Below are positions 24,188 through 28,352 of a DNA stretch of 57,941 nt, piece by piece (position 1 is the stretch's first letter; each line of letters begins with the position of its first letter). The stretch lies in contig NZ_MU255056.1 in assembly GCF_000227725.2 (NCBI RefSeq), positions 2,511,992 through 2,569,932 on the forward strand. The letters are read 5' to 3'. Made by a program: the position numbers and the translations under genes. The notes under the pieces were generated by a model. The model ran no database searches. It was given only the letters and a program-made list of their open reading frames with translations, and was not told the DNA's origin. This DNA is from Thiorhodospira sibirica ATCC 700588. GTDB lineage: Bacteria; Pseudomonadota; Gammaproteobacteria; Ectothiorhodospirales; Ectothiorhodospiraceae.

Positions 24188-25462
24188 TCAAGCGCTGCTG
24201 GTGAACAGTTCTCGAAATACCGGGAAGATGTCGCCTTTGGCGCGTACTTTGCGCATGGCCATGGCATGTCCTGCTTCCAGCAATCCTTCGTACAGTAGCC
24301 ACAGATCGGAGGGGATGTCCCAGCCGCGTTCTTCGCTGACTTCAATATAGGCAAAATAACGACACAGCGGCAAAATCACGTCTTCCAGAATGCGTGCCAC
24401 TGCCGGGTTGTCGCTTTCGGTGTTGTCGCCATCGGAGGCCTGGGCGGCGTAGATGTTCCAGTCGGCGGGGGTATAACGCTCGCGCACCACGCGCTGCATT
24501 TCTTCAAAGGCGGGCGAGACGAGGGTGCCGCCGGTTTCGCGGGAATAAAAGAAGGTGTCTTCGTCCACTTCCTCGGCGATATGGGTGTGCCGGATAAAGA
24601 CCACATCCACATGCCGATAGCGCCGCTCCAAAAACAGATACAGGAGGATAAAGAAACGCTTGGCCAGGTCTTTCATGCCCTCGGTCATGGAGCCGGAGAC
24701 ATCCATCAGACAGAACATCACCGCCTGGGAGATGGGGCGGGGCACCGGGGTATAGCGGTTGTAGCGGATATCAATGGGGTCGATATAGGGGATCAGCCGG
24801 GCACGTCGCCCGTGTTCTTCGCGCTGCAAAATCAGCGCCCGCAGCCGCTCAGGCTCTTTGCCGGAGCGCTCCAGGCGGTCAATCTCCCGATCCAGCGCCA
24901 ATAGCTCTTCCCGTTTGGGGCGGTGCAGGGCCAGGCGGCGTGACATGGCGTTGCGCATGGTGCGCCCCAGATTGAGGTTGGCCGGGGAGCCGGAGGTGGC
25001 ATAACCGGCGCGTTGCAGGCCCTCGTGCTCGGTCTTGGTGATCTGATTGCGCACCAGCCGGGGCAGTTCGAGATTCTCAAAAAATAGGTCGAGAAACTCC
25101 TCACGGCTGACGGTGAACTGAAATTCGTCTTCCCCCTCGCCTTGGTCACTGCCGCTGTTGCCCCGTCCGCCGCCTTCGCTTTGGGGTCTGGCAATGCGAT
25201 CTCCGGCGCGGTATTGCTTGTTGCCGGGCAAGACATGCTCACGCTGGCCGTGACTGCTGCCTTTGTGGAAAAACGGCTCTTGCAGGTTGTCTGCGGGAAC
25301 GCGGATTTCTTCTTCCTGCTGGGCAATATCGGAGACCTTGCGCCGGGCGGAAATATCACGCACCGCGTCCAGAATCTGGCGCTTGGCACGCCGGATGAAA
25401 CGCTGGCGATTGGCCAGGCTTTTATCCTTGGGATTCAAACGCCGATCGACAATGTTCACCAC
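24188..25462 (-). CDS. yeaH: YeaH-type DUF444 protein (UPF0229), VWA-like
   Basis: A 424-residue protein of the DUF444 family. It starts at GTG 25462 with AAGGGGG just upstream. The N-terminus is basic (DRRLNPKDKSLANRQRFIRRAK), a middle section is glycine- and glutamate-rich, and the C-terminal half holds a von Willebrand A-like metal site in AVMFCLMDVSGSMTEGMKDLAKRFF and the pattern RETGGTLVSPAFEEM. It is encoded 13 bases downstream of prkA, the usual pairing. YeaG and YeaH act together in stress and starvation responses in E. coli. The third partner, SpoVR/YcgB, is not found here. Confidence 0.9.
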   Translation of the reverse strand: MVNIVDRRLNPKDKSLANRQRFIRRAKRQILDAVRDISARRKVSDIAQQEEEIRVPADNLQEPFFHKGSSHGQREHVLPGNKQYRAGDRIARPQSEGGGRGNSGSDQGEGEDEFQFTVSREEFLDLFFENLELPRLVRNQITKTEHEGLQRAGYATSGSPANLNLGRTMRNAMSRRLALHRPKREELLALDREIDRLERSGKEPERLRALILQREEHGRRARLIPYIDPIDIRYNRYTPVPRPISQAVMFCLMDVSGSMTEGMKDLAKRFFILLYLFLERRYRHVDVVFIRHTHIAEEVDEDTFFYSRETGGTLVSPAFEEMQRVVRERYTPADWNIYAAQASDGDNTESDNPAVARILEDVILPLCRYFAYIEVSEERGWDIPSDLWLLYEGLLEAGHAMAMRKVRAKGDIFPVFRELFTSSA

Positions 25463-25475
25463 GGCCCCCTTAAGC

Positions 25476-28352
25476 TTAACCGGCCTGTTTGACCCGCATG
25501 TACCATTCGACCAGGCGACGTACCTGGCGTTCAGTATAGCCCCGCGTCACCATGCGCTCGACAAATTCATGGTGTTTGCGGTCCACATCTGAATCGGCCT
25601 TGGCGCCAAAACTGATCACCGGCAGCAGGTCTTCAACATGGGCAAACATGCGTTTTTCAATGACTTCGCGGATTTTTTCATACGCCGTCCATTCCGGCAT
25701 TTCCCCCCCCTTGCTGGCGCGGGCGCGTAGCGCAAATTTGACCACCTCATTGCGAAAATCCTTGGGGTTGGCAATGCCGGCGGGCTTTTCAGTTTTGGTC
25801 AATTCCTGATTGAGCGCCTGACGATCCAGCAGTTGTCCGGTGTCCGGGTCTTTGAAATCATGGTCTTCGATCCAGGCATCGGCATAGGCCACATAGCGCT
25901 CAAACAGATTCTGCCCAAAGTCGTGATAAGACTCCAGATAGGCCTTCTGAATCTCATTGCCGATGAAATCGGCATAGCGCGGTGCCAAATCAGCCTTGAT
26001 GATTTCCAGATAGCGGCGTTCGGTTTCCTCGGGGAATTGTTCACGGCGCAAGGCCTGCTCCAGCATATACAGCAAATGCACCGGATCGGCAGCCACCTCG
26101 CGGGTGTCGTAGTTAAAGGTCTCGGAGAGTACCTTGAAAGCAAAGCGGGTGGAAATTCCGTCCATGCCCTCATCCACCCCGGCGACATCTTTGTATTCCT
26201 GCAAGGATTTGGCACGCGGGTCAGTGTCTTTGAGGCTCTCGCCGTTATAGATGCGCATCTTGGAATACAGACTGGAATTTTCATGCTCTTTGAGGCGGGT
26301 GAGCACCGAAAAACGCGCCAGAATCTCCAAGGTTGAGGGCGCACAAGGGGCTTGCGCCAGCTCGCTGGTACTGACCAGCTTTTGATAAATCAGCTCCTCT
26401 TCGGTGACGCGCAGACAATAGGGCACCTTGATCACCGAAATGCGATCAATGAAAGCCTCGTTGTTTTTATTGTGCTTGAAGGTCTGCCATTCTGATTCGT
26501 TGGAGTTGCCGGTAATCAGCACCTTGCCATTGCGGCGCGCAATCAGCGTATGGTTCGGCGTCTCCAGGCACCAGACCATGCCGGCATAGTCAACCATTCC
26601 CTTGTTAACGTTGTCACTGCGCACCTGATTCACGCCCAGCCGGGTGTTGAGCATGAACACATCGGCATAACCTTCTTTACGACTGATGGCGCAGGTCGTT
26701 TTGCTGCCGCTCAGTGCCGCCAGTTCCTGCAGGAGATCACGATGGAAAGGCACATTGGTGCTGAGTTGGTAGTGATTCTCCCGACTGTTTTGCCCCTGAC
26801 TGCCATCAGTGATGCCCCATTCCTGCAAGAGTATCGTGGCTTGCCGGGCCGACAGGAGGCGGTGGATTTCCGTGAGTTGCTTGGTGAATTTGGCCGACAT
26901 GCGCTTGACATAAAATGCCGTGGTGCCGTCCGGAGATTCCTCACCCTGCTGCCAGGAAAAATCCAGTCGGGACAGCAGTTCCTGGAAGGCTTTGATCTTG
27001 CGGTCTTTATTGAAGTGAAAGCGATAATTAAGACGTCCGTCGTTGGCAATGTAATGGACCGAGCCTTCGGTCACACACCAGATATGGAAGCGTAACTCAT
27101 CATCACTGGCGTAGTAATCGAGATCCGGGCGCTCCAAAACGCCGGAGACGGGCAGATGTGCCCCCTTGACGAAGAAGTCCTCGGCGAGCGTTTCCTTATA
27201 AGAACCATAGGACTCGTAGATGATCTTGTGATTCGGCGTGACGAGGTGATCAGCCGCACTGCTGGAGAGGTGGTACATCGGGCCTTCGTAATACATTTCG
27301 TATTTCTTCAGCGCCGGTTGATATTCGATCTTGCCAGTCTCGCGATTAAGGGTGGCGATCAGATCATCGACCTCGACCGCTTCACGGCGCTTCCATCCCC
27401 CGACGGTGAGGATTTCGGTATCCTCGCTAAAGCAGTGCGCCATGATGATACCTTGAAAGGGAATGGCACCAATGTTTTCCGTGCCCACATAGTTGCTTTC
27501 CTGGGTGGCTGTGAGCAGCGGATGGAGCATTTTGATCGGCGCCTTAAACATCTCCACAAATTCCAAAATGCCCTGATTGGCGCGGTTCAGGCCGCCGGAG
27601 TAGCTGTAGGCATCGGTGTCATTTTGGCTATACAGCTCAAGCTTGCGGATATCCACCTTGCCCACCAGCGAGGAAATATCCTGATTATTTTCATCCCCCG
27701 GCTCGGTTTTGGACACGGCAATCTGGCGCAATTTGGACGGATACAGCCGCACCACACTAAAGCGGGAAATATCGCCGCCCAGTTCATCTAAGCGTTTGAC
27801 CGCCCACGGTGAAATTAAGCCCGTAAGACGGCGCGCCGGGATACCAAAACGCTCCTCCAGCAGCGGCCCCATCGTGACCGGATCAAACAGCCCCAGCGGG
27901 CTTTCAAATACCGGCGAAAGCTCATCGCCGACCTTGAGCACATAGATCGGATGCTTTTCCATGAGGCTTTTGAGGCGTTCTGCCAGCGAGGATTTGCCTC
28001 CGCCCACCGGCCCCAGCAGATACAAAATCTGCTTGCGCTCTTCCAGCCCCTGGGCGGCATAGCGGAAAAAGCCCACGATGCGCTCAATGGTTTCCTCCAT
28101 CCCGTAAAAATCTTCAAAGGCCGGATAGAGCTTGATGGTGCGGTTCATGAAAATCCGCCCGAGCCGCTCATCCTGGGCCGTATCGACCACCGTTGGCTCA
28201 CCGATGGCCGCCACAATGCGCTCGGCGGCACTGGCATAGTGCAATGGGTCATCCTTGCAGGCTTCAAGGTATTGTGCCAGGGACAGCTCCGCTTCCTGAC
28301 GTTTTTGATAATGACGCGCATAGTGCGCGATTAAAGTCTCTGCCGAATCCAT
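25476..28352 (-). CDS. prkA: PrkA/YeaG serine protein kinase, intein-containing precursor
   Basis: A 958-residue precursor made of 648 residues of PrkA/YeaG interrupted by a 310-residue intein (residues 307-616). The host protein has the PrkA AAA+ domain with Walker A GPVGGGKS (114-121), then the C-terminal kinase-like domain. After excision the junction reads GIIMAH-SNESEWQTF, matching the uninterrupted E. coli sequence type (AHSNESEW), so the mature protein is predicted to be intact. YeaG is a cytoplasmic stress-induced kinase acting with YeaH. Its gene is divergent from the response-regulator gene at 28617 across a 264-base gap. Confidence 0.93.
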   Translation of the reverse strand: MDSAETLIAHYARHYQKRQEAELSLAQYLEACKDDPLHYASAAERIVAAIGEPTVVDTAQDERLGRIFMNRTIKLYPAFEDFYGMEETIERIVGFFRYAAQGLEERKQILYLLGPVGGGKSSLAERLKSLMEKHPIYVLKVGDELSPVFESPLGLFDPVTMGPLLEERFGIPARRLTGLISPWAVKRLDELGGDISRFSVVRLYPSKLRQIAVSKTEPGDENNQDISSLVGKVDIRKLELYSQNDTDAYSYSGGLNRANQGILEFVEMFKAPIKMLHPLLTATQESNYVGTENIGAIPFQGIIMAHCFSEDTEILTVGGWKRREAVEVDDLIATLNRETGKIEYQPALKKYEMYYEGPMYHLSSSAADHLVTPNHKIIYESYGSYKETLAEDFFVKGAHLPVSGVLERPDLDYYASDDELRFHIWCVTEGSVHYIANDGRLNYRFHFNKDRKIKAFQELLSRLDFSWQQGEESPDGTTAFYVKRMSAKFTKQLTEIHRLLSARQATILLQEWGITDGSQGQNSRENHYQLSTNVPFHRDLLQELAALSGSKTTCAISRKEGYADVFMLNTRLGVNQVRSDNVNKGMVDYAGMVWCLETPNHTLIARRNGKVLITGNSNESEWQTFKHNKNNEAFIDRISVIKVPYCLRVTEEELIYQKLVSTSELAQAPCAPSTLEILARFSVLTRLKEHENSSLYSKMRIYNGESLKDTDPRAKSLQEYKDVAGVDEGMDGISTRFAFKVLSETFNYDTREVAADPVHLLYMLEQALRREQFPEETERRYLEIIKADLAPRYADFIGNEIQKAYLESYHDFGQNLFERYVAYADAWIEDHDFKDPDTGQLLDRQALNQELTKTEKPAGIANPKDFRNEVVKFALRARASKGGEMPEWTAYEKIREVIEKRMFAHVEDLLPVISFGAKADSDVDRKHHEFVERMVTRGYTERQVRRLVEWYMRVKQAG
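26505..27434 (-). mobile_element. Intein inserted in prkA AAA+ domain
   Basis: Residues 307-616 of the precursor. It begins with the nucleophile Cys307 (CFSEDTEILTVGGW, block A), has block B with the TxxH motif (HLVTPNHKII), and ends with block F (GMVWCLETPNHTLIARRNG) and block G (KVLITGN) before Ser617 of the C-extein. The last residue is Asn616; the usual penultimate His is replaced by Gly, a variation seen in some active inteins. A middle segment (about 417-560) has one LAGLIDADG-like stretch (FHIWCVTEGSVHYI), probably a divergent or decaying homing endonuclease. Confidence 0.9.

Follow-up and report, generated by a model that had tools for sequence, protein, structure and literature searches.

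The window, a 57,941-nucleotide stretch of the Thiorhodospira sibirica ATCC 700588 genome, contains a prkA open reading frame (25476..28352) that encodes a 958-aa precursor. This gene, its parts, and its neighbor all lie on the minus strand. The frame is unbroken through the whole 958 aa, and the host protein matches AAA_PrkA (PF08298, 8e-173) and the PrkA C-terminal domain (PF06798, 1e-70) in Pfam as well as the NCBIfam PrkA model NF011999 (1207.8 bits). AAA_PrkA is split into two stretches, and the two Pfam domains are placed on either side of a 310-residue insert. The N-extein (residues 1-306; 27435..28352) ends in QGIIMAH, and the C-extein (25476..26504) starts at Ser617 (SNESEW...) and includes the stop codon. 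Compared with uninterrupted PrkA from the same family, they are 86-90% and 84-87% identical, respectively. The insert itself (26505..27434) occupies precursor residues 307-616, beginning with CFSEDTEILT and ending with VLITGN before SNESEW; its removal leaves a PrkA of 648 aa. The original prediction had placed it at exactly these coordinates, with Cys307, Asn616, Ser617, and the junction AH/SNESEW, where the slash marks the insertion point. Directly downstream of prkA is yeaH (DUF444; 24188..25462), in which a DVSGSM (MIDAS-like) motif can be read from the sequence.

The insert is composed of a HINT (Hedgehog/intein) splicing domain and a LAGLIDADG endonuclease domain, as judged from sequence matches, a profile, and the predicted fold. 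Its residues are numbered here from 1 to 310. Block A (residues 1-13; 27396..27434) opens with Cys1, block B (residues 61-74; 27213..27254) contains T66-P-N-H69, block F (residues 286-301; 26532..26579) aligns with C289 at position F:4 and H295 probably at F:13, and block G (residues 303-310; 26505..26528) ends in Thr308-Gly309-Asn310, followed by Ser+1. The presence of all four blocks is thereby borne out. Among 17 relatives collected without the use of a sequence pattern, there is no variation at Cys1, His69, or Asn310, residue 66 is Thr or Ser, and 16 have Gly in the penultimate position. Cys1 is also invariant in all 41 rows of a further, mostly viral set, which was picked by a pattern that includes Gly-Asn and is not counted for the Gly frequency.

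Only one LAGLIDADG-like stretch had been recognized originally, but the insert contains two. The first motif (residues 114-125; 27060..27095) includes FHIWCVTEG at residues 116-124 with the acidic residue E123, and the second (residues 201-212; 26799..26834) includes LQEWGITDG at residues 203-211 with D210. Both fall on predicted helices (model helices 111-122 and 196-210), and both acids are conserved, as D or E in 17/17 relatives for the first and as D in 17/17 for the second. This arrangement matches the two-helix pattern of LAGLIDADG homing endonucleases. The helices are degenerate, so a dead endonuclease is possible.

Structure, profile, phylogeny, and empty insertion sites together identify the insert as an intein, in agreement with the original prediction. 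An AlphaFold model of the insert, run with 40 viral inteins, has a pLDDT of 93.5 and a pTM of 0.91. Its HINT fold matches many intein structures with Z scores of 14-23, including the TliVMA intein (Z 23.0 over 293 residues) and the splicing domain of the AceL NrdHF intein (6zgq; Z 21.7, rmsd 1.4 Å over 143 residues), and its endonuclease half matches I-DmoI. The AceL NrdHF intein is also matched at E 1.4e-7 in a phmmer search with the insert as query, and a profile of the 17 relatives matches 14 PDB sequences, nearly all of them inteins or homing endonucleases. No intein model in Pfam or NCBIfam matches the insert. This silence reflects a sensitivity limit, because the Pfam model Intein_splicing matches just 1 of the 17 close relatives while the profile of those same relatives matches solved inteins. 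Taken literally, the lack of intein profile matches that the original prediction named as a refutation does occur in the two libraries, as a blind spot of their models. A match of the insert to RCC1_2 (E 0.17) is weak and was set aside as chance, and a search for related loci with the insert alone as query returned nothing in genomes or viral contigs.

The missing Pfam and NCBIfam intein matches are the one observation in favor of regarding the segment as a normal PrkA domain of some lineages, a reading with practically no probability. The segment is absent from the other bacterial PrkA proteins listed and from 65 full-length viral PrkA frames among the 80 loci listed, and homologous inserts occur in unrelated genes. 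The fold and the empty sites refute this reading.

Empty sites are documented most closely within the family. In 17 same-family genomes with prkA, the DNA aligned with residues 1-306 and 616-958 is continuous and lacks the insert, at 84-90% identity on either side of the insertion point, which supplies the comparison with near relatives called for by the original prediction. T. sibirica alone among 47 genomes of the family carries the insert. In a sample of 398 genomes of the phylum, 125 encode PrkA at a threshold of E <= 1e-40, and all other PrkA frames listed are at most 747 aa long versus 969 aa here. A search of about 85,000 species genomes for the PrkA junction beside [GHDERQ]-Asn gave 0 matches with a pattern that requires Trp and Phe and so does not cover other sites or the phage form described below; a control motif with the empty site matches nearly all prkA loci, including all 17 same-family ones. 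A literature search that covered few subscription papers returned no report of an intein in PrkA.

The insert is very probably a class 1 LAGLIDADG intein of a largely phage-borne subgroup, seated at the AAA+ sensor-1 site of PrkA, that splices and has spread by homing. Its class 1 features are Cys1, the TxxH of block B (T66-P-N-H69), Asn310, and Ser+1. In class 3 inteins, the N-terminal nucleophile is lacking by definition. Class 3 splicing, in which block F Cys289 would make the first attack as in AceL NrdHF, is suggested by the fact that both the closest PDB sequence and the closest splicing-domain fold belong to that class 3 intein, and by Cys289 at F:4 and Thr308 at G:5. Against this, Cys1 is present and invariant in 41/41 relatives, and position B:12 is Ile71 rather than Trp, so only the C and T of the WCT triplet (B:12, F:4, G:5) are found. 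The AceL NrdHF intein has an MCT triplet (PMC7891396), and Cys ranks second in frequency at F:4 among inteins (PMC4031507), which lessens the weight of Cys289. Class 3 splicing is accordingly quite unlikely, and class 1 is the preferred assignment.

A penultimate His is usual in class 1 inteins and is not required. Here it is absent, as had been noted originally, with Gly309 in its place and the remaining class 1 splicing residues all present. Inteins without a penultimate His are known to splice (PMC5050341, PMC7664689). A phage intein with a native penultimate Gly splices well and is slowed by mutation of that Gly to His, and a block F His is able to stand in for the penultimate His (PMC5050341). 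Because Gly is the norm in the largely phage-borne group of this intein, and because of the behavior of that phage intein, Gly309 reads as the rule of the group and no sign of weakness. His295, placed in an alignment made by eye, is probably the block F residue that replaces the penultimate His.

The missing His, and the restriction of the intein to a single genome of the family, could instead be taken to mean that it is a degenerate, non-splicing element and that PrkA is broken. This is very unlikely given that the frame is open throughout, the other splicing residues are all present, Gly is standard in the group, and the exteins are highly conserved. The extein dN/dS is 0.04-0.05 versus two relatives, with dS near saturation, and this low value could largely predate the insertion; pairs with two further relatives were left out as apparently misregistered by an indel. 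In the extein tree, the terminal branch of T. sibirica PrkA does not exceed in length those of relatives without the insert. Since the exteins are strongly constrained and the branch is not lengthened, these comparisons suggest, indirectly, that the cell still produces functional PrkA and therefore that splicing takes place.

The position of the insert within PrkA was examined by folding an insert-free viral PrkA that is 72% identical (pLDDT 86.4). In this model, the strand at 110-114 precedes the Walker A loop, the strand at 263-267 occupies the Walker B position, and the strand at 303-308 ends at the insertion point, which lies between His307 and Ser308 of the viral protein. The next residue, Asn309, is invariant in all rows. 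The fold matches AAA+ proteins at Z 14.8, and its best solved counterparts are NorQ and CbbQ, both of the AAA+ type (Z 14-15). A strand, two residues, and an Asn follow one another in this order at AAA+ sensor 1, and the Asn is assigned to sensor 1 as probable by that order. The insert thus interrupts the AAA+ core where strand beta-4 ends, with the probable sensor-1 Asn618 two residues further on. Because the ATPase site is disrupted, the precursor probably lacks ATPase activity as long as it is unspliced.

The original prediction called PrkA a serine kinase and proposed that splicing could gate kinase formation. The first description rests on the family name, while the insert lies in an AAA+ ATPase domain, and this PrkA is better described as an AAA+ ATPase; gating of a kinase is not supported by the domain match. 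Serine kinase activity of PrkA is disputed in the literature, with kinase activity undetectable in a purified Bacillus PrkA in a 2026 study (PMC13001217). The AAA+ fold is nearest to MoxR-type NorQ/CbbQ, and the neighboring YeaH carries the MIDAS-like motif noted above. MoxR-type NorQ/CbbQ proteins have VWA-domain proteins as partners. PrkA and YeaH may likewise form a MoxR/VWA-type pair and not a kinase system.

The only further PrkA intein to be found lies in the viral contig IMGVR_UViG_3300003406_000002 (104,899 bp), at the identical site and with 38% identity. It has the same form (H/C...GN/S), catalytic residues, and Gly-Asn ending, with Cys at F:4 and Thr at G:5. Its setting differs from that in T. 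sibirica, being a T4-like phage of 31% GC with contiguous prkA, yeaH, and spoVR and a PrkA that is 60% identical. The contig encodes a terminase, a UvsX-like recombinase, a DnaB-like helicase, a major head protein, and baseplate genes. Its spoVR, yeaH-like gene, and prkA lie side by side at about 57.4-63.2 kb. In T. sibirica, spoVR is at a separate place in the genome (C4:212022-213299).

In a 25-row intein tree, the T. sibirica and phage PrkA inteins are sisters (bootstrap/SH-aLRT 100/99), whereas in the extein tree T. sibirica PrkA falls within its own bacterial family with a support of 100. Since the inteins are sisters while the host protein groups with its own family and is 60% identical to phage PrkA, the intein and its host gene differ in history, as expected for homing. 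These data suggest that the intein passed between phage and bacterial prkA, and not recently. The two inteins differ by 62%, and the DNA at the two sites is identical in 40 of 60 positions. Their GC contents (54.5% in T. sibirica and 32% in the phage) each fit the composition of the respective genome. The transfer would therefore be old, and it may have gone either way or come from a third source that is not sampled. A fresh import was considered and dropped, as the GC (54.5%) and third-position GC (68%) of the T. sibirica intein equal those of its host gene.

PrkA is common on viral contigs, where the empty site occurs in at least 120 stretches and where 65 full-length frames are present among the 80 loci listed. 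It is also present in huge-phage records of about 640 kb (LR745206, LR756502, LR756504), and PHROG 22605, of unknown function, is the PrkA family.

Beyond PrkA, homologous inteins interrupt phage NrdA, NrdB, NAMPT, ThyX, and other proteins (430 phage records), with full-length matches over 1-310 and the flanking exteins in register. They also occur in bacterial nrdD and nrdB of other families. The phage ribonucleotide reductase, NAMPT, and ThyX inteins, such as those in Salmonella phage Shivani NrdA and Pectobacterium phage phiTE NrdB, share homology over 1-310 at about 25-30% identity, a LAGLIDADG domain, and the Cys1...Gly-Asn ends, but they occupy host genes and sites different from T. sibirica prkA.

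Splicing of the T. sibirica protein would begin with translation of the precursor as a single 958-aa chain, after which Cys1 would attack the His306-Cys bond and the N-extein would be transferred to Ser+1. Asn310 would then cyclize, aided by block F His295 in place of the absent penultimate His, and release the 648-aa PrkA. The unspliced protein would have no ATPase activity, with the AAA+ core broken near the probable sensor-1 Asn618. The intein would most likely have been spread by homing between phage and bacterial prkA copies, because phages carry prkA and one has the allelic intein.

Alternatively, the intein could have been retained as a timed post-translational switch that holds the precursor inactive at sensor 1, with stress (redox, metal, or temperature) slowing or triggering splicing and so setting the time of PrkA activation. 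In its favor, the insert lies at an ATPase catalytic site, PrkA is a stress protein, several cysteines (Cys1, Cys289) are located at the splicing site, and other inteins are reported to splice conditionally (PMC6195587, PMC7360933). Against it, the intein is distributed as a mobile element would be, with no relative among the 47 family genomes keeping the intein, the sole other PrkA intein found in a phage, and the same subgroup in many unrelated phage genes. A retained switch is therefore quite unlikely, and spread by homing remains the preferred explanation.

The kind of element is known, and what is new is PrkA as an intein host gene and site. The AceL NrdHF split intein (PDB 6zgq) is the closest solved splicing domain and likewise misses the penultimate His (PMC7891396). 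Unlike the T. sibirica intein, it is split, has no endonuclease, belongs to class 3, and has Ala at position 1. The Mycobacteriophage Bethlehem RDF intein shares the native penultimate Gly and splices efficiently (PMC5050341), but it resides in a different host protein, and the likeness is drawn from its published description. P-loop ATPase inteins, such as those of TerL and T. sibirica ClpB, likewise interrupt an active-site motif of an ATPase, but theirs is Walker A or B as opposed to the probable sensor 1 of PrkA.

The allelic phage prkA intein provides a concrete route for inteins into bacterial genes through phage copies of a host gene, and the phage and host prkA inteins form a testable homing pair. 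Since the activity of PrkA is disputed, it is also of use that the intein offers a means of trapping the protein as an inactive precursor.

T. sibirica is an intein-rich bacterium, with three inteins besides that of PrkA. These are in PEP synthase (GGRT/C...NN/CHAA; C4:1396500-1403000), in GyrB (MSVDA/...HN/TDADVDG; C4:1854500-1861800), and at the Walker A loop of ClpB (GVGK/A...HN/T; C4:542500-549500), the last of which has no Cys1 and looks class 3. Another genome of the same class has a further intein (C...HGN/T), in what seems to be a phage portal-like protein.
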